Translations under genes and position numbers: made by a program
Notes under the pieces: model-generated
What the model was told of the DNA's origin: nothing
Databases searched by the model: none
Seen by the model: the letters and a program-made list of their open reading frames with translations, nothing else
Origin: a candidate division FCPU426 bacterium
GTDB lineage: Bacteria; Oederibacteriota; JAAXVQ01; JAUVAV01
Assembly: GCA_016929575.1 (NCBI GenBank)
Contig: JAFGIQ010000099.1
Location: 1-32,175, forward strand
Direction of reading: 5' to 3'
Length of the DNA: 32,175 nucleotides
Shown here: positions 17,166 to 31,732 of the stretch, piece after piece
Layout of the letters: the number at the start of each line of letters is the position of its first letter
Numbering within the stretch: position 1 is the first letter of the stretch

Positions 17166-18131
17166 ATGGATCTTTTTGACCGGATATTCAAACTGCATCA
17201 GATTCTCAGCCAGTCGCACTATCCTGTTTCCCGGATCAAACTGCAAACCCAGTTGGAATGCTCGCGCGCCACAGTAAACCGCTGCCTCGACGATTTGAAA
17301 GATTACCTGCATGCGCCGGTAGAATACAACCGTAAGGCCGGCGGCTATCAGTATGCCAAAGACCGCAAAGCAGCCTATGAGCTTCCGGGCTTATGGTTCA
17401 ATGCCTCCGAACTGAGGGCGCTGCTGGCCCTGCAGCAGCTTTTGTCCGATATACAGCCAGGACTTCTGGAGGCGCATCTCGCCCCCTTTAAAAAGCGCAT
17501 AGAGCAGATCCTGTGTTCCAAGCGGGCCGGGACCGGCCGGGCCGGCAAATGCATCCGCTTTTTGGGAATGGCAAGCAGGCCTGCGGAGGCGGACACATTC
17601 AGGACAGTTGCAAATGCACTTCTGAAATACAGGCGCCTGCGCATCACCTACCACAGCCGGTCGCGCAATGCGACCACCGTGCGCGCAGTGTCGCCCCAGA
17701 GGCTGGTGCACTACCGCAGCAACTGGTATCTGGATGCCTGGGATCACCGCAAACGCGCGCTCCGCAGCTTTGCCCTGGAGCGCATCAAACAGGCGGATCC
17801 CGTCAAACAACCGGCGAAAAAAATCCCCGCATCCAGGCTGGACGCTTATTTTGCGGCCGGCTACGGCATCTTTGCCGGAAAGCCAAAAAATATTGCCGTC
17901 CTGAAATTCTCCGCCGAAAGAGCCCGCTGGGTGGCCGAGGAAAAGTGGCATCCGCGGCAGAAAGGACGGTTTGAAAGCGGCTGCTACATATTGGAAGTGC
18001 CGTACTCGGACCACCGGGAACTGGTCATGGACATATTAAAACACGCGCCGCATGTGGAAGTGCTGGCGCCCGGGAGCCTGAAAAAGGAGATCAAAGGAAT
18101 CCTGGGCGCGGCCATAAAAAAATGCAAATAA
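17166..18131 (+). CDS. HTH + WYL-domain transcriptional regulator
   Basis: N-terminal winged HTH (FKLHQILSQSHYPVSRIKLQTQLECSRATVNRCLDDL), WYL region (LVHYRSNWYLDAWDHRKRALRSFALERI). Confidence 0.9.
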   Translation: MDLFDRIFKLHQILSQSHYPVSRIKLQTQLECSRATVNRCLDDLKDYLHAPVEYNRKAGGYQYAKDRKAAYELPGLWFNASELRALLALQQLLSDIQPGLLEAHLAPFKKRIEQILCSKRAGTGRAGKCIRFLGMASRPAEADTFRTVANALLKYRRLRITYHSRSRNATTVRAVSPQRLVHYRSNWYLDAWDHRKRALRSFALERIKQADPVKQPAKKIPASRLDAYFAAGYGIFAGKPKNIAVLKFSAERARWVAEEKWHPRQKGRFESGCYILEVPYSDHRELVMDILKHAPHVEVLAPGSLKKEIKGILGAAIKKCK

Positions 18132-18253
18132 ATTTTCCCAGGCTCAGGAATTGAGACAGGGGTGTGGTAGAAAGTGTGAAAGGATTTTGCCAAAAACCGG
18201 TCTAAATGGATGGGATTTGTCTGTTCCCAATCATTTCAAAACCGGAGGAAAAA

Positions 18254-19069
18254 ATGAAAAAATCAAGGACAATAAGAGTCAAAGGCGCTGACATATCTGT
18301 AATTTCGGTCAATGGACAGGACTACATTTCATTGACGGATATGATAAAAGCGAAAGATGGTGATTTTTTTATTTCAGATTGGTTGAGAAACAGAAATACG
18401 GTTGAATTTTTAGGCATTTGGGAAAAGGTTTTCAATCCGTCTTTTAATTATGGCGAATTCGCCATAATTACCCGTCAAGCCGGTTTGAATAATTACAAAT
18501 TAAGCGTTAAGGAATGGGTTGAAAAAACCAACGCCATCGGTTTGAAAGCGACGGCTGGAAGATACGGCGGCACATACGCTCATAAAGATATAGCATTTGA
18601 GTTTGGCATGTGGGTCAGCGCCGAGTTCAAGATATATTTAATCAGGGAATTTCAGCGGTTGAAAGAGGAAGAAAACAGGCGCCAGTCGCTTGACTGGAAC
18701 CTGCAACGCACGTTGGCAAAAGTCAATTACCGCATTCACACGGATGCCGTCCAGGAAGCGCTGCTGCCGCCGGTCGTTTCCAAGCGCCACGCTGCGCAAA
18801 TCTATGCCAATGAGGCGGATGTTCTAAATGTCGCCTTGTTCGGCAAAACCGCCAAGGAATGGCGGCAAGCCAATCCGGGCCAGGGTGGAAACATCCGTGA
18901 CCAAGCAGCGCTTGAACAGCTGGTTGTGCTTTCTAATCTCGAAAGCATCAATGCCCTGCTTATTCATCAGGGCATGTCACAATCCGAACGGCTGGCAAAA
19001 CTGAACCAAACCGCGATAAGCCAAATGAAATCACTGCTGGACAATAAAACAGTCAAGCGGCTGAAATGA
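18254..19069 (+). CDS. KilA-N domain protein
   Basis: YISLTDMIKAKDGDFFISDWLRNRNTVEFLGIWE, GLKATAGRYGGTYAHKDIAFEFGMWVSAEFKIYLIREFQRLK; RBS ggagg upstream of the ATG. Confidence 0.88.
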   Translation: MKKSRTIRVKGADISVISVNGQDYISLTDMIKAKDGDFFISDWLRNRNTVEFLGIWEKVFNPSFNYGEFAIITRQAGLNNYKLSVKEWVEKTNAIGLKATAGRYGGTYAHKDIAFEFGMWVSAEFKIYLIREFQRLKEEENRRQSLDWNLQRTLAKVNYRIHTDAVQEALLPPVVSKRHAAQIYANEADVLNVALFGKTAKEWRQANPGQGGNIRDQAALEQLVVLSNLESINALLIHQGMSQSERLAKLNQTAISQMKSLLDNKTVKRLK

Positions 19070-19206
19070 ATATGAGCCGATATTACGCCCATTCACGGGA
19101 AGGTAAAAGCGAGGAGCATTGGCATAAGCTGGAGGAGCATCTCTATGCAGTGGCCGAGATGGCCGGGGAGTTTGCGGGAGAGTTTGGGGCGCGGGAAAAA
19201 GCATGA
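19066..19206 (+). pseudogene. Truncated N-terminus of a type I-C-like Cas3 (HD domain start), 46 aa
   Basis: MNMSRYYAHSREGKSEEHWHKLEEHLYAVAEMAGEFAGEFGAREKA*: YYAHS...W..LEEHL..VAE.A.EFA..FGA pattern of I-C Cas3 N-termini, then stop; ATGA overlaps on both sides. Confidence 0.75.
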
Positions 19207-21845
19207 TAGATAAATCACTGGTCAACCTATGGGCGAAAACAGATAAAAACGATCAATCTCGGTGGCATCCGCTTATCCTCCATATGATGGATGTTGCTGC
19301 AGCAGCAGAGTGTATTCTAGCGCGTGAACCTGAATCTACCCGTGTCAGGATGGCGGCGTGTTTGGGAATGGAGTGGGAAGATGCCCAGCCATGGCTCTTA
19401 CTTATTGCCGCTTGTCATGATTTGGGAAAAGCATGTCCAGGGTTTCAGTGCAAATGGCAAAACATGACAGGGCTTGATTCCGGACGAAATCCGAATACCC
19501 AAATAAACCATGCTTTTGTAAGTCAAATTGCCTTGACTGAACTCCTTCAAAGTAATGGTTGGCCGGAAGAATTGGCAGAGTTGGTGGCGGATGCAGTCGG
19601 ATGTCATCATGGAAACCGGGCTGCACCGACGGAGCTTGATTATTTAATAGGCGATAGGCGTGCCCTGGGCCGATACGATTGGGCAAAAGCACGACAGCGA
19701 CTTGTCGAAGTGCTGCTAGATGTTTTCAAACCTTCTCGGGTTCCTGTCAAAGAAGAACTTTCCGGCTCGGATTTTATGTTGTTGTCTGGACTTGTGAGTT
19801 TTGCTGATTGGATTGGTTCCAATGATGAATGGTTTTCGTTCGGAAGCACCGAAGATTGCAATGACCTAGCGTATTTTTATTCAAAACGGCGAATAGTTGC
19901 CGATGGAGCGTTAGATGCCATTGGTTGGACAGCCAGAACACCGTTATCCACAGAGTTAAAGACGTTCGGACAAGTATTTCGATTTACTCCTCGTCCCTTG
20001 CAACAGTCGGTTGTGGACGCATTGACTTTGTTAAAAGCTCCGGCCATTTTACTGGTCGAAGCTCCCATGGGAGAAGGCAAAACCGAAGCAGCTTTTTATG
20101 CGCACCTGGAATTGCAACGGCGATTCGGGCACAGGGGGTTATATGTCGCATTGCCGACCAAGGCAACTGGAAACGCCATGTTCAAACGGGCTTTAAAATT
20201 TATAACCGATCAAGGCGCAGGCAGGCAGCTTGATATGCAACTGCTGCATGGAGCAACTATGCTTAACGATATATTTAAAAATCTTAGGCTGAATGGCATT
20301 TTCGATCCAGAAAGCGGTGGAGAAGTTCGCGCAGGGGAATGGTTTACGCATAAAAAACGGGCCTTGCTCTCGGAGTATGGCGTAGGAACCGTAGATCAAG
20401 CGCTGCTACCCATTTTGCCTGTGAGGCATAATTTTGTGCGCTTGTGGGGCTTGGCCAACCGGGTTGTGGTTTTTGATGAAATACATGCATACGATGCCTA
20501 TACAGGGACACTATTGATTCATCTGCTGCGCTGGCTCCTGGCGTTGGGGTCATCCGTCGTGCTGCTTTCGGCAACCCTGCCGCCTTCAATCAGACGCAAG
20601 TTGGCGGATGCGGTGAATGCTTCGCTACCGAAGAAAGATAAAAAATACCCCCGCCTGACCGTTTTTCAACCAGGTTCAGTAAGGCAGGTGCATTTCAGGG
20701 CAGACCCAACGCGCCACCGAACCGTGAGCTTGATTGGAATTAAGCCGGAACTAGAAAACATGTATGTGGCGTTGGAGGAGCATCTTGTCAAAGGCGGAAT
20801 GGGGCTGGCGCTGGTAAATACCGTGCAACGAGCGCAGGATTTGTATCGGTCGTACCCAGTGGGTGAACCAGTGGTGTACGAAGGTCAGCGTATTGGTAAA
20901 AAGCTTTTGGATGGGACCGAAGTGTATCTTTTTCATGCACGCTTTCCGGCTGATCGCAGGCAAAAGCGCGAAGATTATGCTTTAAAAGTATTCGGAGAGA
21001 GCGGAGATCGAGTAGGGAGGAAGATTCTTATTGCCACCCAGGTGGTGGAGCAAAGCCTTGATCTGGACTTTGATTTGATCGTAACAGATTTAGCACCCAT
21101 TGACCTTATCCTTCAAAGGGCAGGCCGTTTGTGGCGGCACGCGCGGGATAATCGGCCTTTAAAAGAACCAATCATGATAGTGGCCGGGCTTAGGGGAGAT
21201 GAGCCGCCTTCATTTAAAAAACCATTGTGGTGGGGCAGCGTGTATCACGAGCATTTATTATTGCGTACATGGTGCTTGCTGAAAGGAAAGAAGAATTTGA
21301 TCTTACCCGGTGAGATAGATGTTCTGGTACAAGCTGTATACGAAGAAGCAGTGGATATACCGGAGTTCTTGCAGGAGCGAATGGGGAAAGCAATGGAAAA
21401 TGGAGATGGCGAGACTATCACTATGCGCGGCCAGGCTAACCAGGCAATAATTGGTCTGCCCGACGACGCATCCTGGAACGATCCCGCACGATTCGTTCTT
21501 TATGACGAAGATGAACCGGGTGTGAATCGAGTACTCATGGCTCAAACCCGGCAGGGCGTAAATTCATGTATTGCTATCCCACTATTGCCGGAAGACGGCT
21601 ACGCTTCGGGAGCGATCACGGATAGTGGCCAGGCTAAGCAATGGTTTTTAAAGGCAGTAAGTCTTTCGCGACCAGGGGTGGTCAGCAGACTTCTAACCCA
21701 AGGAGTGCCGGAGGACTGGAAAAAATCGCCCCTTTTGCGTAATTGTTTTCCGCTGGTGCTGGACTCGGAAGGACGTTGGATTGAAGATTTAAAAGTTAAA
21801 CTGGATGATGATCTGGGAATCGTTTATGAGACCAAGGAGGGGTGA
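19203..21845 (+). CDS. cas3: CRISPR-associated helicase/nuclease Cas3, type I-E
   Basis: HD motif ACHDLGKACPGFQCKWQ; helicase motifs APMGEGKTEAAFYA, DEIHAYD, LLSATLPP, QVVEQSLDLDFDLIVTDLAPIDLILQRAGRLWRH. Confidence 0.96.
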   Translation: MIDKSLVNLWAKTDKNDQSRWHPLILHMMDVAAAAECILAREPESTRVRMAACLGMEWEDAQPWLLLIAACHDLGKACPGFQCKWQNMTGLDSGRNPNTQINHAFVSQIALTELLQSNGWPEELAELVADAVGCHHGNRAAPTELDYLIGDRRALGRYDWAKARQRLVEVLLDVFKPSRVPVKEELSGSDFMLLSGLVSFADWIGSNDEWFSFGSTEDCNDLAYFYSKRRIVADGALDAIGWTARTPLSTELKTFGQVFRFTPRPLQQSVVDALTLLKAPAILLVEAPMGEGKTEAAFYAHLELQRRFGHRGLYVALPTKATGNAMFKRALKFITDQGAGRQLDMQLLHGATMLNDIFKNLRLNGIFDPESGGEVRAGEWFTHKKRALLSEYGVGTVDQALLPILPVRHNFVRLWGLANRVVVFDEIHAYDAYTGTLLIHLLRWLLALGSSVVLLSATLPPSIRRKLADAVNASLPKKDKKYPRLTVFQPGSVRQVHFRADPTRHRTVSLIGIKPELENMYVALEEHLVKGGMGLALVNTVQRAQDLYRSYPVGEPVVYEGQRIGKKLLDGTEVYLFHARFPADRRQKREDYALKVFGESGDRVGRKILIATQVVEQSLDLDFDLIVTDLAPIDLILQRAGRLWRHARDNRPLKEPIMIVAGLRGDEPPSFKKPLWWGSVYHEHLLLRTWCLLKGKKNLILPGEIDVLVQAVYEEAVDIPEFLQERMGKAMENGDGETITMRGQANQAIIGLPDDASWNDPARFVLYDEDEPGVNRVLMAQTRQGVNSCIAIPLLPEDGYASGAITDSGQAKQWFLKAVSLSRPGVVSRLLTQGVPEDWKKSPLLRNCFPLVLDSEGRWIEDLKVKLDDDLGIVYETKEG

Positions 21846-23362
21846 TGAGCCGATTCAACTTGATAGATGAAAAGTGGATACCAGTACGAATGCGGGATGG
21901 AACCCGCGATGAACTGGGTATCAAAGACACGCTGCTGCGCTCCAAGGAAATTGCGGGCATCGAGGATCAGTCACCACTTGTGGTAGCAGCCCTGTATCGT
22001 TTTCTGCTCGCGGTACTGTATCGCGCACTAGAAGGGCCGACAGATATAAAAGAGGCCAAAGATCTGTTCAAGGCAGGGTTGTCGGTAAAAAAAATTAAAG
22101 CGTATTTGGAAAAATGGTGGGAACGTTTCTATCTTTTTGATAAAAAATATCCATTTGGGCAAAATCCTAATGTCTCGGAAAGTGAAATCGAACCGTGGAC
22201 CAAACTAACCTCCGAGTATAATGCTTCATCCAACAAAGTGCTTTTTGATCACACCGATGCAAAAGATCCGGGAATAAGAGAGCCAAAAGAATGCGCACGG
22301 TGGCTGCTCTCTACAATGACTTTTTCAATCTCCGGTGGCAGAGGGTATTACCCATCGCCTTCGCCCAATGCCATGATGTGTATTCCACTTGGGGAAAATC
22401 TTCATGAAACGCTCTGTTACAATCTGGTGCACTACCCAAATCGAAAAGTAATGGAAATGGATTCGGCTTTGTGGGAACGAAAACCGAAGTCGTTACCACT
22501 TAAAAAGCCAAAGCAGACAGCATCAGGCTATGCAGACCTATACACTTGGTTGCCCAGAATGGTTCTTTTTGAAGAACACGCTTCGGGTAACGTGGAAAGC
22601 ATGCGGTTTGTTGCTGGGATAGGCTTTGATAATCCATCTGAAAATCCTGATCCCATGCAGCCTTATAAAAATGATGATAAATATGGGCGGATGCCTATTC
22701 AATTCAGAGAAGATAAAGGAACCTGGCGGGATTTTGATTCTCTACTCCCAGATAGCGAAACTCTCGCTCCTTTAACCATTCAGAATGCGCTCCAATTGGC
22801 AGGGAGTAAAACCGAGAGACTACCGAAATCTCTTTTAGTGCTCGGTTTAAGATATTCTCCCCCGAGTGCGAATGTTGATTTCTGGCGCATGGAGCGGTTC
22901 ACATTGCCGGAAGCGCTGGCGAGCGATCGCGTTATTCGGACGGAAATACATCAACTGCTCGAAGAAGCCCAAGAAACGCAAACATCACTTTGGTCGTCTT
23001 GCTGTACTTTTGCCCGACATCTTTTACGTCGAGGAGAGAAAGAACCGGACAATAAGGATGTTAAGGCGTTTGTGAAACAAATACCTATAATAGCTTGGTA
23101 CTGGTCCACCCTTGAAACTCGTTTTCATGAAGTTCTAAGTGCGTACACCCTTGACCGAAATCCTGATGATATCCGTTGCCAGTGGCTGAAATATATCCGG
23201 GATAGCTTGCGGAGTGCTTGGGAACAGCATCGAGCTTCGGTTTCCATGGGGGATGCCTGGGCTATCCGTGCAGTCGTGAAAGCCGAAAAGCCGGTGCGAA
23301 GAAAACTAAAGGAATTGAACGATGAGATATTAAAACTTGAACCACAAAAGGAGGGGGCATGA
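21842..23362 (+). CDS. casA: Type I-E Cascade large subunit Cas8e/Cse1
   Basis: FNLIDEKWIPVRMRDG, position after cas3, size. Confidence 0.95.
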   Translation: MMSRFNLIDEKWIPVRMRDGTRDELGIKDTLLRSKEIAGIEDQSPLVVAALYRFLLAVLYRALEGPTDIKEAKDLFKAGLSVKKIKAYLEKWWERFYLFDKKYPFGQNPNVSESEIEPWTKLTSEYNASSNKVLFDHTDAKDPGIREPKECARWLLSTMTFSISGGRGYYPSPSPNAMMCIPLGENLHETLCYNLVHYPNRKVMEMDSALWERKPKSLPLKKPKQTASGYADLYTWLPRMVLFEEHASGNVESMRFVAGIGFDNPSENPDPMQPYKNDDKYGRMPIQFREDKGTWRDFDSLLPDSETLAPLTIQNALQLAGSKTERLPKSLLVLGLRYSPPSANVDFWRMERFTLPEALASDRVIRTEIHQLLEEAQETQTSLWSSCCTFARHLLRRGEKEPDNKDVKAFVKQIPIIAWYWSTLETRFHEVLSAYTLDRNPDDIRCQWLKYIRDSLRSAWEQHRASVSMGDAWAIRAVVKAEKPVRRKLKELNDEILKLEPQKEGA

Positions 23363-23871
23363 GTGGATTTATTGAATGGCTGGAAAAAATAAATGAGAAG
23401 AATTCAAAGGTTAGGGCTGTCTTGCGGCGCAGTTTGGCCTTTGAACCTGGGGCGTATGTCGAGGCTTACCCGTATGTCGAACCGTTTGTCAAAGGGGAGG
23501 CGAATTCTTTACGAAGAGAGGTTCATTATCTTGTGGCCGGACTTTGGGCAATGCATAAACAGGAAAGCCGAGCAGGAGAATCAATGTCCCTTGGGAGAGC
23601 AAGCGCAATCCATCAAATAGCCAGCGGGTCTACAAGTACGGAACGTCGTTTTATTACCCTGCTTGATGCCGATCATGACCAGTTGCCGCATCGCTTGCGC
23701 CAGATGGTCGCGCTCCTAAAAGAGTATGCGATTGATTTTGAAGCGTTACTAAAAGGCCTTTTAAATTGGAATGACGATCGGAAAAGGACACAGAATGCCT
23801 GGGCGCGTGATTTTTACAAGCACGTTGAAAGTGAACCGGAAACCACCAACACAAAGGAGAAAATAAAATGA
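23359..23871 (+). CDS. casB: Type I-E Cascade small subunit Cas11/Cse2
   Basis: FIEWLEKINEKNSKVRAVLRRSLAFEPG, position between cas8e and cas7e. Confidence 0.92.
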   Translation: MSGFIEWLEKINEKNSKVRAVLRRSLAFEPGAYVEAYPYVEPFVKGEANSLRREVHYLVAGLWAMHKQESRAGESMSLGRASAIHQIASGSTSTERRFITLLDADHDQLPHRLRQMVALLKEYAIDFEALLKGLLNWNDDRKRTQNAWARDFYKHVESEPETTNTKEKIK

Positions 23872-25031
23872 AAAATCTAATCGAAATTCACGCTATACAG
23901 AACTATGCTCCATCAAATTTAAACCGAGATGATACTGGGGCGCCAAAAGATGCTTTGTTCGGCGGCACTCGCCGCGCGCGTATATCCAGCCAATGCTTGA
24001 AACGGGCTGTCAGGCAATATTTTGATGAAAAGAAAAAAGCCGGGTTTTTCAAGCCGGAAGAACTCGAGGTCCGCACCAAACGTGTTTATCAAGCCATAGC
24101 AGAACTGCTCGAAGGAAAAAAGCGTGATAAGGCCGAAGCGCTTGCCAAAGCAGAAATTGCGTTATCTTACGTGAAGTTAAAAGCGGCGGACGAAGATAAG
24201 ACCCAATACTTGCTTTTTCTGGGTCAGAAAGAGATAGCAGATTTAGCCAAATCCATTTATGAATACTGGGATCAGATCGTAGCTGCACCAGAAGATACCA
24301 GCGAGAAGGGGAAAGGAAAAGGGAACAAGAAGAAGGAAGCGGCCAGCGGTGCGCCAAAAGAAGTGCAGGAGAAGATTGCTTCTATTTTTAATGGTGGCAA
24401 GGCCGTAGATCTGGCGCTTTTTGGCCGCATGTTGGCAGATATGCCGGAGAAAAACCAGTATGCAGCTTGTCAGGTTGCGCATGCTATCTCGACCCATGCC
24501 GTGGATCGGGAGTTTGATTTTTATACGGCGGTGGATGATCTTAAACCTGAAGACAATGCAGGGGCGGATATGATCGGAACGATTGAGTTTAACTCAGCTT
24601 GTTTCTATCGGTATGCTGTAGTGGATGTAGAGAAGCTCACGGACAATCTTCAAAAAGATACGGAGCTTGCAAATAAAGGATTGCGTGCTTTTCTGGAAGG
24701 CTTTGTAGTGTCTGAACCAACGGGCAAACAAAATACATTTGCCGCGCATAATGCGCCGGAGTTTGTGGCTATATCTGTGCGGCACAATACGACGCCGCGC
24801 AACCTTGCCAATGCGTTTGAGACAGCTATTCGCTCACGAAAAGACGAATCGTTGACGAAAAAGTCTGTGGAAGAACTTATTAAAAAGGCCAATGCTCTCC
24901 AGAAAGCATTTGGCGGTGATGAAAAAACGTTTGTACTTAATTTGACCGAGGCCAAACTTGAAGGGTTTGGAAATTCAGTTACTTCTTTGCAAGAGCTTTT
25001 AGATAAAAGTCTCGCGGCTGTACAGGGGTGA
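23868..25031 (+). CDS. casC: Type I-E Cas7e/Cse4
   Basis: IEIHAIQNYAPSNLNRDDTGAPKDALFGGTRRARISSQCLKRAVR. Confidence 0.97.
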   Translation: MKNLIEIHAIQNYAPSNLNRDDTGAPKDALFGGTRRARISSQCLKRAVRQYFDEKKKAGFFKPEELEVRTKRVYQAIAELLEGKKRDKAEALAKAEIALSYVKLKAADEDKTQYLLFLGQKEIADLAKSIYEYWDQIVAAPEDTSEKGKGKGNKKKEAASGAPKEVQEKIASIFNGGKAVDLALFGRMLADMPEKNQYAACQVAHAISTHAVDREFDFYTAVDDLKPEDNAGADMIGTIEFNSACFYRYAVVDVEKLTDNLQKDTELANKGLRAFLEGFVVSEPTGKQNTFAAHNAPEFVAISVRHNTTPRNLANAFETAIRSRKDESLTKKSVEELIKKANALQKAFGGDEKTFVLNLTEAKLEGFGNSVTSLQELLDKSLAAVQG

Positions 25032-25034
25032 CCT

Positions 25035-25715
25035 ATGCCAACATTACTAATTCGTTTAGTTGGCCCCATGCAATCCTGGGGAACCACCAGCCGCTTTGAT
25101 CAACGCGATACAGGGAAAGAACCGAGCAAGTCAGGTGTTATTGGACTCTTGGCAGCGGCGTTGGGGATTGACCGCGAAAATTGGACGGAATTGGAACCGC
25201 TCACAAAAATAACCATGGCGGTTCGCCATGACCGGCCTGGTTCACCAAAACGAGATTATCAGACGGCCCAACATATTATCTCGGCGGATCATTCGAAAAG
25301 ACATGAGACCGCAGTTACTTTTCGGGATTATTTGGCCGATGCGGCATTTCTTGTAGGTCTTGAAAGCAAGAATAGATCATTGTTGGAAAGAATTCAAAGC
25401 AGTCTACTCAATCCCGTTTGGCCCTTGGCCTTGGGGCGCAAGTCCTATGTGCCATCGGAGTCTATCTGGATTGAGTGTGGATTGCATGATGCCCCGTTGC
25501 GGAAAAGCATAACTCAATGGCCTTGGATTTCAGCCCTGCGCAAATGGGAGGAATTGCCTGAGAAGCTTTTAGTTTCTTTTGAGTCCGAGGACGGGTCAGG
25601 TGTGCTTAAAATGGATCAACCGCTTTCGTCTTTTGCAGAGCGGCGCTTTGGAGCGCGGTTTGTACGCTCGGAGTGGATTCCTTTCCCCAAGGAGGCGATC
25701 CATGTTTCTGCATAG
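25035..25715 (+). CDS. casD: Type I-E Cas5e
   Basis: LLIRLVGPMQSWGTTSRFDQRDTGKEPSKSGVIGLLAAALGI. Confidence 0.96.
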   Translation: MPTLLIRLVGPMQSWGTTSRFDQRDTGKEPSKSGVIGLLAAALGIDRENWTELEPLTKITMAVRHDRPGSPKRDYQTAQHIISADHSKRHETAVTFRDYLADAAFLVGLESKNRSLLERIQSSLLNPVWPLALGRKSYVPSESIWIECGLHDAPLRKSITQWPWISALRKWEELPEKLLVSFESEDGSGVLKMDQPLSSFAERRFGARFVRSEWIPFPKEAIHVSA

Positions 25716-26382
25716 AATTATTTTAGACCCACGCTGTAAAGAAGTCCGGCGCGATCTTGCTGATCCCTACCAGCTTCACTCTACACTATGCCGTGCTTTC
25801 AGTACACCTGATACGAAATGTTCTGAAGGGGAATTTTTATGGCGGCTTGAACCCGAGAAGAATTCTGACGGAATGCCGCGTATTTTGGTCCAAAGCCGGA
25901 AGCGGGCGGACTGGAAGGGTATAGGTGTGCAGGGTTGGCTGGCCAAAGCCGATCCGGCAATTGATCTTGGTGAACGACTTAAACTTGATTCACTCAAAGT
26001 TGGACAGCGGTATCGGTTCCGGCTTCGGGCTAATCCTTGCATATCACGAAAGGGCAAACGCCTGGGACTGCTCAAACTGCCGGAGCAGGAAGCCTGGATT
26101 GCCCGCAAAGGGCAGCAGCACGGATTTTCATTGCCACAATTTTCGTCCTTTGATCTTTCCGAGGCTTCGCAGCCAAGAATAGATGTGCGGGTTTCTCAGG
26201 AACAAATGATACAAGGGGAACAGCAGTCGGGGAATTTGATTAAACTTTTATCGGTATTGTTTGACGGTGTTCTTACGGTTACCGAACCGGATAAGTTTAT
26301 AAACACACTGCAAACCGGTATCGGACATGGCAAGGCAATGGGGCTTGGGCTTCTTTCAGTAATGCCAATATCGTTTTCATAA
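25702..26382 (+). CDS. casE: Type I-E Cas6e crRNA endoribonuclease
   Basis: MFLHRIILDPRCKEVRRDLADPYQLHSTLCRAF, C-terminal TGIGHGKAMGLGLLSV; start overlaps the casD end. Confidence 0.95.
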   Translation: MFLHRIILDPRCKEVRRDLADPYQLHSTLCRAFSTPDTKCSEGEFLWRLEPEKNSDGMPRILVQSRKRADWKGIGVQGWLAKADPAIDLGERLKLDSLKVGQRYRFRLRANPCISRKGKRLGLLKLPEQEAWIARKGQQHGFSLPQFSSFDLSEASQPRIDVRVSQEQMIQGEQQSGNLIKLLSVLFDGVLTVTEPDKFINTLQTGIGHGKAMGLGLLSVMPISFS

Positions 26383-26392
26383 GATAAAGGGG

Positions 26393-26411
26393 AGGTGGCA
26401 AAATACCACCT
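26393..26411 (+). terminator. Terminator-like hairpin after cas6e
   Basis: aggtgg-caaaata-ccacct stem followed by gcctttt. Confidence 0.4.
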
Positions 26412-26666
26412 GCCTTTTAACGAAATTGAATATTGACAACTTGGGTACAATTTGTACTACACTTGTTGAATGGATAGGTACATTTTGTCCTCCCCCTTTT
26501 GCATCTTCAGTTGTCGACAAACTGTAGACAACTTGTCGACGGTTGGAATCGAAGTGTCCGAAATAATCGGACAGTTGAAAAAAACAAAACATTATGCAAG
26601 AAACCCGGCTATTTTCTGTCTAACCGTGTAGTAAGTCACACTACTACACAAGGGGAACAAAAGCAG

Positions 26667-27775
26667 ATGGTCAATCAATATGCGGAGATGTTGAATCAGA
26701 TTAAGGCTCGAATTCGTCAGGCCCAGACGCGCGCGATGTTTTCCGCGAATGCGGAAATGATCAGGATGTATTGGGATATTGGGCGTATCATTCGCGAACG
26801 GCAACAGCAGAAAGGCTGGGGAGCGGGGGTTATTCCGAGGTTGTCCCGGGATATCAGCAATGAATTACCGGAGGTAAAAGGATTTTCCGAAAGGAATATT
26901 GGAAGAATGATAGCGTTTTATCGGGAATATTCTGATTCGACAGTAATTTTGCCACAGCCTGTGGCAAAATTACTGTCGCGTACAAAAGAGCCACAAGCTG
27001 TGGAAGGTTTTGTGTCAAAGATCCCCTGGGGTCATAATATACTGCTCATGGAAAAGGTGAAAAATATTGCAGATCGGTTTTGGTATATCCGGCAAGTGAT
27101 CGATCAAGGCTGGAGCAGGGATGTCTTGCTGATAATGATAAAAAACCAGGCACACAAACACCAGGGAAAAGCAGTGCATAATTTTAAAATGAAGTTGCCC
27201 CCGGTTCAATCAGACTTGGCAGAGCAGGCGCTGAAAGATCCGTATGTTTTTGACTTCCTTACACTGGAGGAGCCCTTTCATGAGCGGGAATTGGAGACAA
27301 GCCTGATCCGTCATTTGCAAAAGTTCTTATTGGAGTTGGGGCAAGGCTTCGCATTCGTCGGCCGGCAGTATCATGTGGAAATCGGAGATGAGGATTATTA
27401 TATTGACCTGCTCTTTTATCATCTCAAACTTCGCTGTTTCATTGTAATCGAACTGAAAAAGGGAGCCTTCAAACCGGAATATATAGGAAAAATCAATTTC
27501 TACTGTAACATCGTCGATGATCAATTAAAACAAAAAGAAGATAAACAGACCATTGGATTGATTCTCTGTCAGAATAGAAAATCTGTATTGGCTGAATACT
27601 CTTTAAGAGGTGTTGGCAAACCGATTGGTGTTTCAGAATATGAGCTGACCAGGACATTACCAAAAAAATTAAAATCATCACTACCCAGTGTTGAGGATAT
27701 TGAACAGGAATTGAATATTAACCAAGAAACAAAACTTAAAAGAAAGATAAAAATGGCAAATAAAGGGAAATTAAA

Positions 27776-27779
<4 letters not shown>
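26667..27779 (+). CDS. DUF1016/YhcG-like PDDEXK nuclease domain protein embedded in the cas operon
   Basis: N-terminal ARTAMFSANAEMIRMYWDIGRII-type region, IPWGHNILLMEKVK, C-terminal YYIDLLFYHLKLRCFIVIELKKGAFKPEYIGKINFY (D..E-x-K nuclease core); stop overlaps the cas1 GTG. Confidence 0.92.
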
Positions 27780-28994
<1,215 letters not shown>

Positions 28995-29054
28995 TTTGAT
29001 TGGTAAAAATATTTGCTTTTGAAAAAGGTTGGGATTAAAGGGGATTCTAGAAGT

Positions 29055-30120
29055 ACGTTCCCCGCACGAGCGGGGATGAACCGTTTGCCCCTTTCCATAT
29101 TGGCGTTAGTGTAATACGTTCCCCGCACGAGCGGGGATGAACCGCGTGGATTGCTTAATGAACACTTTGAGGCAATACGTTCCCCGCACGAGCGGGGATG
29201 AACCGACATTGCAGATTCTGTTTGTGGTTCAGTTTACACGTTCCCCGCACGAGCGGGGATGAACCGAACGACCAGGTGGATATGACTACGCAGGCACTAC
29301 GTTCCCCGCACGAGCGGGGATGAACCGGTTGACTGAGGATTTTAGTGGAGGAGACAATCACGTTCCCCGCACGAGCGGGGATGAACCGCCTTTGGTCTGT
29401 TTTTGGTTTTATCCCAATAAACGTTCCCCGCACGAGCGGGGATGAACCGCATACTGCCACATTCTTCGGGATTGGGATAGTACGTTCCCCGCACGAGCGG
29501 GGATGAACCGCAATTCTAACCAATCTATAGGAGAACGATTACACGTTCCCCGCACGAGCGGGGATGAACCTTTAAAATCCGCGCTCATACCTCAACCGCC
29601 TTGACGTTCCCCGCACGAGCGGGGATGAACCGTGATTCCTTCGTCACTCCTGTTAGATTTTTAAACGTTCCCCGCACGAGCGGGGATGAACCGCGCCGAT
29701 AATCCTTGCGCGCACTTTTTCTCATACGTTCCCCGCACGAGCGGGGATGAACCGTTTGCGTTGTATATTCCGCACCGATTGCATCAACGTTCCCCGCACG
29801 AGCGGGGATGAACCGTGGTATATGGGCGCGGTGGTGGAGGAAGCGCTACGTTCCCCACACGAGCGGGGATGAACCCACTACGGCCAAGGATTCAGCCGCC
29901 CCCTTTGCACGTTCCCCGCACGAGCGGGGATGAACCGAGATGACGCGGGTTAACGTGACAGGGTGGAATACGTTCCCCGCACGAGCGGGGATGAACCGTG
30001 CGGGAGTGTGGAAATCGCTGGATAGGACTAACGTTCCCCGCACGAGCGGGGATGAACCGCAATACGGCATTTACCGTCTGGCTGCCAGAATACGTTCCCC
30101 GCACGAGCGGGGGTGTTTCT
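29055..30120 (+). CRISPR. Type I-E CRISPR array, 18 repeats / 17 spacers, repeat acgttccccgcacgagcggggatgaaccg (29 nt), spacers 32 nt, period 61
   Basis: Repeats begin at 29055 + 61k for k=0..17; the last copy (30092-30120) has a degenerate 3' end, placing the leader on the cas2 side. Confidence 0.99.
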
Positions 30121-30238
30121 GTGGAACAAGCAAGGGCCTATTGTGGCATAAATATATTTACGCATATGCAATTAATACCATGAGTGAATAGTCTGACTGT
30201 GTAGGGGGATAATCCTGCACAGAGGAGGAAGAAAAGGC

Positions 30239-30808
30239 ATGGCAACAAGCATTGGCGATAATCTGATCCCGTCCCATGGAGGCTACCGCAAGCTGCGAAG
30301 TTTTCAAGCTGCGCAACTGGTTTACGACGGCACCGTGATTTTTTGCGATCGTTTTGTGAATAAGCGTTCGCGCACTCATGACCAAATGGTCCAAGCAGCC
30401 CGCAGCGGAGTGCAAAACATTGCCGAAGGAAGCATGGCCTCGGCTACTTCTAAAAAGACTGAATTGAAACTGACCGGTGTGGCCAGGGCCAGCCTGGAGG
30501 AATTGCTCCTTGATTATGAGGATTTTTTGCGGCAGGGAGGATTGCCGCGCTGGGAAAAAGATTCAGCCCAGGCACTTGCGGTTAGAAAAAAGTATTTGTC
30601 CGACCAGTCCGGCACGTCTGACCAGTCGGACAAATATTGTTTAAAAACAGCCTCGGCCGAAGTGGCAGCAAATACGCTGATCTGCCTGATCAACCAGGCG
30701 AGTTTTCTATTGGGGCGCCAAATAAAATACCTGGAAGAGCATTTTTTAAAGGAAGGCGGATTTACAGAGAGGCTATACAGCATGCGGCAAAGCTATAGGC
30801 GGAAATAG
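30239..30808 (+). CDS. Four-helix-bundle protein (23S rRNA IVS-type family), copy 1
   Basis: RSRTHDQMVQAARSGVQNIAEGSMASATSKKTELKLTGVARASLEELLLDYEDFLRQ, NTLICLINQASFLL. Confidence 0.9.
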   Translation: MATSIGDNLIPSHGGYRKLRSFQAAQLVYDGTVIFCDRFVNKRSRTHDQMVQAARSGVQNIAEGSMASATSKKTELKLTGVARASLEELLLDYEDFLRQGGLPRWEKDSAQALAVRKKYLSDQSGTSDQSDKYCLKTASAEVAANTLICLINQASFLLGRQIKYLEEHFLKEGGFTERLYSMRQSYRRK

Positions 30809-30990
30809 AATTGCGCGGACCCCAAGCGGCCGCGAAAACGCCGGGATGTTCGCGATGGGGGATTATGATATAAATAAAAGCAATAATGAATTTGGGAGAT
30901 TGATGTTCAGTATGAAGGGTGGTGAATATAGGTACTTTCGCGGAGCACGGCGGTTTTGTGTTTGCGTGGCATAGATTTTTAGGTGCCACG

Positions 30991-31022
30991 GTCGCCCCCC
31001 GTGCGGGGGCGTGGATTGAAAC
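30991..31022 (+). repeat. Single type I-C-like CRISPR repeat gtcgccccccgtgcgggggcgtggattgaaac
   Basis: 32-nt sequence with GTCGC start, GTGGATTGAAAC end and internal GC hairpin, as in I-C repeats. Confidence 0.85.
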
Positions 31023-31053
31023 ATGCGGGATGCTACATCTGCTGGTACTTACG

Positions 31054-31082
31054 GTTTTCCCCGCACGAGCGGGGATGAACCG
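31054..31082 (+). repeat. Solo type I-E-like CRISPR repeat gttttccccgcacgagcggggatgaaccg
   Basis: 26 of 29 positions match the main array repeat (first three bases differ); lies 31 nt after the I-C-like repeat. Confidence 0.9.
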
Positions 31083-31180: not shown

Positions 31181-31732
31181 ATGGATGACAAACAGGGGTT
31201 GATTTAGCAGCACGGCGGGTACGAAAAACTAAAGTCCTATCAAACAGCTGAAATTGTGTATGACGCCACGGTTGTTTTTTGCGGCCGCTTTATTGACAGG
31301 CGCTCGCGCACTCATGACCAGATGGTCCAGGCCGCGCGCAGCGGCAAGCAAAATATTGCCGAGGGCAGCATGGCATCAGCCATATCCCGGAAAACCGAAC
31401 TCAAGCTTATAGGCGTGGCCCGGGCCAGCCTGGAGGAATTGCTGCTGGATTACAAGGATTTTTTGAGGCAAAAAAATCTATTGCTTTGGGACAAGGATCA
31501 TCCCAAGGCCAAGAAGATTAGGGCTTTGGCTTTTGTTTTGAATAGGTCCTATGGGACATATAGGACCTATATTGAAAAAGAAAATTCTGAAACTGCGGCC
31601 AACACGCTGATCTGCCTGATTCATCAGGCCGATTATCTGCTGGACCGGCAGTTGCATCAGCTGGAAGAGCGGTTTTTAAAAGAAGGCGGTTTTACGGAAA
31701 GGTTGTTTCGAATGCGGCAGCGGCAGAGATGA
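31181..31732 (+). pseudogene. Four-helix-bundle protein copy 2; in-frame TAG at codon 9, or shorter ORF from GTG 31256
   Basis: MDDKQGLI*QHGGYEKLKSYQTAEIVYDATVVFC... aligns with copy 1 through the stop. Confidence 0.65.

Follow-up and report, generated by a model that had tools for sequence, protein, structure and literature searches.

Almendros and co-workers are said to have described in mBio in 2014 an exchange of CRISPR-Cas functional modules in Escherichia coli, between subtypes I-E and I-F. That one subtype has replaced another is mostly deduced from trees or from patterns of presence and absence. For E. coli the I-E/I-F exchange is cited in passages of PMC4489801, and the orphan I-F arrays of this species are an example of a short array left behind after the loss of cas genes (PMC8616872). 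These two cases are the closest precedents for the locus described here, and a fossil of one system replacing another is not unprecedented. A description of a hybrid I-C/I-E array was not found in the open papers that were searched. What the present locus offers is a putative replacement scar that can be read in the sequence on both sides of the new system, and the route of replacement is testable in close relatives.

The locus lies in a stretch of 32,175 nt (the window) of contig JAFGIQ010000099.1, assembly GCA_016929575.1, from a candidate division FCPU426 bacterium. The genome comprises 2.83 Mb in 327 contigs and is 87% complete, so that intact I-C genes could sit in the missing part. Our preferred reading, to which we give a probability of about 0.78, is that an I-E cassette overwrote an I-C locus where it stood and that the chimeric mini-array at its right is the leader end of the dead I-C locus. 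We favor this because a Cas3c stub is left on one side, an I-C leader and repeat on the other, and a complete-looking I-E system stands between them, and additionally because the genome shows no I-C Cas1 or Cas8c and relatives show no such island at the site. Remnants of the older system are thus found on both sides of the new one, on the same strand and at a single site. The features are collected in Table 1.

Table 1. Features of the window that bear on the I-C and I-E systems.
Feature	Position	Strand	Basis or remark
WYL-domain regulator	17166-18131	+	matches N-terminal WYL part of PADLOC WYL-Cas3c model and CRISPR-associated WYL models
KilA-N protein (PDC-S22), defence-island passenger	18206-19069	+	stop overlaps start of Cas3c stub (ATGA)
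Relic I-C cas3, N-terminal ~43-45 codons, MNMSRYYAHSREGKSEEHWHKLEEHLYAVAEMAGEFAGEFGAREKA*	19066-19203	+	protein similarity, PADLOC
I-E operon, complete-looking: cas3, cas8e, cas11, cas7, cas5, cas6, yhcG, cas1, cas2	19203-28994	+	
yhcG passenger within I-E operon	26499-27779		
Main I-E array, 17 full repeats and an 18th losing its 3' part after 30112	29055-30112	+	
944-bp segment splitting I-E repeat into two halves	30113-31056	+	18-bp TTCCCCGCACGAGCGGGG on both sides
Gene A, 4-helix-bundle suffix domain (TIGR04258)	30239-30808	+	domain match
I-C leader	30815-30990	+	G004 alignment; profiles of I-C leaders
I-C repeat GTCGCCCCCCGTGCGGGGGCGTGGATTGAAAC, first (leader-proximal), 32 nt	30991-31022	+	sequence at coordinates, genome search
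I-C-type spacer, 34 nt	31023-31056	+	interval between I-C repeat and I-E repeat core
Lone I-E repeat without first three bases, core TTCCCCGCACGAGCGGGGATGAACCG	31057-31082	+	repeat search
Gene B, 4-helix-bundle suffix domain (TIGR04258), in-frame TAG near start	31196-31732	+	

The first-pass annotation of this DNA had reported an I-C repeat followed by an I-E repeat, and both sequences are present where it placed them. The I-C repeat is 32 nt long, ends in GTGGATTGAAAC and has 94-97% identity to the I-C repeats of several relatives, which puts it in the I-C class. It occurs as a single copy in the genome as assembled (2.83 Mb, 327 contigs, 87% complete), so the locus does not hold an I-C array of at least two repeats around a spacer. 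The core of the I-E repeat (31057-31082) does not differ from the main-array repeat, and no further copy occurs outside that array. When the full repeat is scored the agreement is 26/29, and the three mismatches are its first three bases (GTT instead of ACG). Since these all fall at the 5' end, the natural boundary lies at 31056/31057 and the interval is 34 nt (31023-31056), not 31. The earlier interval of 31 nt (31023-31053) is better drawn to 31056.

This length is informative. The first I-C spacer of a genome of the same family (G004) is also 34 nt, the other I-C arrays examined have units of 65-66 nt and thus spacers of 33-34 nt, and every spacer of the main I-E array (17/17) is exactly 32 nt. 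A spacer of the I-C length and not of the I-E length counts for the I-C relic reading. As a spacer owned by the I-E system the stretch does not fit, being 34 nt long (31 nt in a 29-nt repeat frame) and having an I-E repeat on one side only. The first-pass annotation had also offered cross-type integration by Cas1-Cas2. In such a scenario the I-E Cas1-Cas2 would have added a spacer next to a repeat of the I-C type, or vice versa. The one thing that points to it is the mixed repeats themselves. Spacer integration duplicates the repeat that is attacked, and both flanks of a new spacer then carry the same repeat type, so mixed flanks speak against this proposal, and a 34-nt spacer behind a full I-C leader fits the I-C machinery. 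We find cross-type integration hardly credible.

The origin of the spacer was sought by a search against phages and plasmids, a check that the annotation had proposed, and the matches were at chance level only. There was no match to I-C cas genes, nor elsewhere in the window, and anti-cas or self-targeting spacers were rejected since no match rose above shuffled levels. The unit does not look like a viral mini-array or solitary repeat unit either, as its flanks are cas genes and the chromosomal genes ndh and uvrA. No phage structural genes were seen among the window proteins scanned.

A full I-C leader lies directly upstream of the I-C repeat, which makes chance a poor explanation of the mini-array. 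A profile of 28 I-C leader and repeat sequences, taken from I-C loci of other genomes and from G004, matches 30815-31022 over its full length with an E-value of 1.5e-24. With the repeat omitted and three doubtful leaders dropped, the leader-only profile still matches (E 1.8e-8). The G004 match has 86% identity over 88 nt (30935-31022), was the only relative found in that search and lies directly 3' of I-C cas1 and cas2 in a complete operon with the order cas3-cas5-cas8c-cas7-BRO-cas4-cas1-cas2 (names by resemblance). The alignment extends back to GCGGACCC...TTCGCG, the opening element of I-C leaders, which begins a few bases past the stop of gene A. Judged from these sequence matches, the I-C part is the leader end of an I-C locus and not a stray repeat. 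Behind gene B a further, decayed I-C leader was suspected (shuffling p of ~0.025) but rejected, as the profile of I-C leader starts misses the site.

On the left flank, a Cas3 remnant that had been noticed earlier does exist (19066-19203) and is of the I-C type. Over 38 aa, the stub shows 53% identity to the N-terminal end of the I-C Cas3 encoded by another genome (G044; E 6e-8). In PADLOC it scores best against Cas3c models (7.6e-6 and 3.6e-5), in contrast to the I-E Cas3 downstream, whose start matches Cas3e. The stub is located between the KilA-N gene and the I-E cas3 and terminates where the latter begins. A caveat on the replacement reading is that this stub is short, with 38 aligned residues. 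I-C Cas1 and Cas8c gave no match in the 87%-complete genome, where a functional I-C system with both cas1c and cas8c was thus not found, and a scan of the window for other I-C proteins or cas remnants gave none beyond the stub. The WYL gene may have headed the former I-C operon, its matches being suggestive only. The KilA-N gene was considered as an I-C-specific gene and rejected, since its relatives are not beside I-C cas3 in the 26 loci examined.

The two flanks could also be explained by I-E and I-C loci that were adjacent in one defence island, where the I-C locus decayed by deletion and happened to become joined to part of another I-E array, with no replacement at all. G004 carries both I-C and I-E systems, on separate contigs, and the island is full of defence-type passengers (yhcG, KilA-N, 4-helix), both of which are compatible with loci that sat side by side. 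This account does not readily give a stub immediately left of the I-E cas3 and a leader right of the I-E array, on the same strand and in I-C order, and we regard it as rather unlikely. The co-occurrence of I-C and I-E in a genome of the same family also counts for the I-C relic reading.

The I-E system between the relics appears intact and probably provides the cell's working immunity. DNA homology to the I-E locus of G004 starts at 27767, just before cas1. For cas1 and cas2 the identity to the G004 counterparts is 90% and 78%, whereas cas3, cas8e, cas7 and cas5 are only 24-36% identical, and this sharp break (window 27767-29055), with cas1-cas2-leader close and the effector genes distant, suggests that the I-E effector module has also been exchanged relative to the adaptation module. 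As a separate observation, passengers occupy the position between the effector and the adaptation genes in several loci: yhcG in the I-E operon of the window, BRO in the I-C and I-E operons of G004 and 4-helix genes in other I-C loci (window 26499-27779, L101, L032).

The surroundings of the site were compared with related genomes, which the first-pass annotation had suggested inspecting for I-C arrays. In the window ~15 kb separate ndh and uvrA. Two relatives (G002 and G003) have mnmA-ndh followed directly by uvrA and a third (G006) has one small gene between ndh and uvrA, and in these three genomes neither I-C arrays nor any other CRISPR lies between ndh and uvrA. Among the relatives, none was found to carry an intact I-C locus here; in G004 the relevant contig stops ~1.9 kb upstream of uvrA, with the I-C locus on another contig.

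The junction between the I-C spacer and the I-E repeat can be described more precisely. The last repeat of the main array retains its first 21 bases and diverges from 30113, and the 18 bp TTCCCCGCACGAGCGGGG found at 30095-30112 recurs at 31057-31074. Deleting the 944-bp segment together with one copy of TTCCCCGCACGAGCGGGG regenerates a perfect I-E repeat. These observations would be best explained if the segment had entered the last I-E repeat and an 18-bp direct duplication had formed in the process. It is not proof, since terminal CRISPR repeats often decay at their 3' end and a decayed terminal I-E repeat could mimic the duplication. In the I-C operon of G004 (L032:7396-8600) a BRO/ANT gene stands at the start of cas4, with a truncated, interrupted copy of the cas4 start of ~100 bp upstream. 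This would be an insertion with target duplication, with a geometry similar to that of the split I-E repeat in the window.

In a scan of ~85,000 genomes, the end of an I-C repeat with an I-E repeat 22-52 nt behind it was found in one other record, the pattern being narrow, limited to the I-C-then-I-E order and possibly leaving out records very near the window's own genome. This record, CAIQWD010000068.1 (L044:35-272), is an uncultured delta proteobacterium MAG in which a single I-E repeat closes a run of I-C repeats. No further I-E repeat occurs in its genome, and Cas1c and Cas8c were not detected there. The resemblance to the window lies in the lone I-E repeat after the I-C part. In contrast to the 34 nt of the window, 46 nt lie between the two repeat types there and an I-E array is missing; the leader is not visible since the contig starts inside the array, whereas the window has a full leader.

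This second case bears on the possibility that an assembly chimera joined the I-C leader-repeat-spacer to the I-E repeat. The junction is seen in a single contig of a fragmented assembly, and CRISPR arrays often break assemblies, as seen for the I-C contig of G004, which ends inside its array. However, the I-C and I-E repeats have no long k-mer in common, and the shared stretch next to the I-E repeat, 18-26 nt, would fall below the usual length of assembly k-mers. Additionally, the far flank offers independent evidence in the form of the Cas3c stub, and a similar junction exists in an unrelated genome. We consider a chimera very improbable.

The two 4-helix genes around the mini-array differ in their closest relatives. 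Gene A groups with free-standing 4-helix copies. Its 5' UTR carries a conserved element, CTGTGTAGGGGGATAATCCTGCACAG (window 30196-30236), that is common to the leaders of BRO/ANT genes in relatives. For gene B the seven best relatives among 247 genomes (71-74% identity) are all I-C operon genes directly before cas4, and the relatives ranked after these seven are not near I-C genes. Gene B is thus likely to be a further I-C relic, and its I-C operon type counts for the I-C relic reading. It lies downstream of the leader, out of the I-C order, which implies at least one more rearrangement in the history of the locus. A tandem duplication of the unit I-E repeat, 4-helix gene and leader was rejected, since the sequences upstream of genes A and B are unrelated and their closest relatives differ.

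A TIGR04258 4-helix gene, apparently of a distinct subfamily, also stands directly before cas4 in 9/30 I-C loci (L106, L109, L110, L112, L113, L114, L118, L123 and L127; family confirmed for four) sampled from the phylum to which the second hybrid genome, the delta-proteobacterial MAG CAIQWD010000068.1, belongs. The survey presents the TIGR04258 4-helix genes as an accessory family, one of a set of passengers that use the slot before cas4. No link between 4-helix genes and CRISPR was found in the papers searched.

If the locus was replaced in place, the island between ndh and uvrA would once have held an I-C system. An I-E cassette, from cas3 to the array, would have recombined into this island, and the I-C operon would have been lost from about codon 43 of cas3 to the region before the leader. 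On the left the Cas3c stub would have survived, and on the right the leader of the I-C locus with its first repeat and newest spacer. The remainder of the I-C array would have been lost, so that this spacer now abuts an I-E repeat. For this last junction, the most economical route would be the entry of the 944-bp piece (gene A with the I-C leader-repeat-spacer) into the last I-E repeat, with the 18-bp duplication. We infer this order and mechanism of events. The first-pass annotation had likewise proposed an in-place replacement of I-C by I-E, which the stub and the leader with its repeat support. It had placed the recombination at the repeats, and for this part the junctions give no support: the left junction is inside cas3, and the junction of spacer and I-E repeat keeps no part of a second I-C repeat.

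The relic probably yields no usable standard crRNA. From crRNA processing as established, a dead unit is expected, since an I-C handle lies 5' of the spacer and an I-E hairpin 3' of it, and neither Cas5c (none seen) nor Cas6e alone would be sufficient for a complete crRNA. The I-C Cas1 and Cas8c, not found in the genome, point the same way. One could go further and imagine that CRISPR repeats are preferred landing sites for defence cassettes with a short target duplication, that I-C and I-E repeatedly overwrite each other at arrays, and that the residual I-C leader still drives transcription into the I-E repeat and so supplies Cas6e with a hybrid RNA of regulatory function, a combined picture to which we lend only slight credence.

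Compared with the known systems, the locus resembles the I-E/I-F exchange of E. coli in that related lineages swap type I subtypes and relic arrays persist without cas genes. It resembles the orphan I-F arrays in that a short array outlasts its cas genes. Unlike in the orphan I-F arrays, no spacer here matches I-C cas genes, there is no sign of an anti-cas role and the second cognate repeat is missing. Unlike in the I-E/I-F exchange, the subtypes involved are I-C and I-E, a Cas3c stub lies on one side with an I-C leader-repeat-spacer on the other, and the spacer is bounded by repeats of two types.
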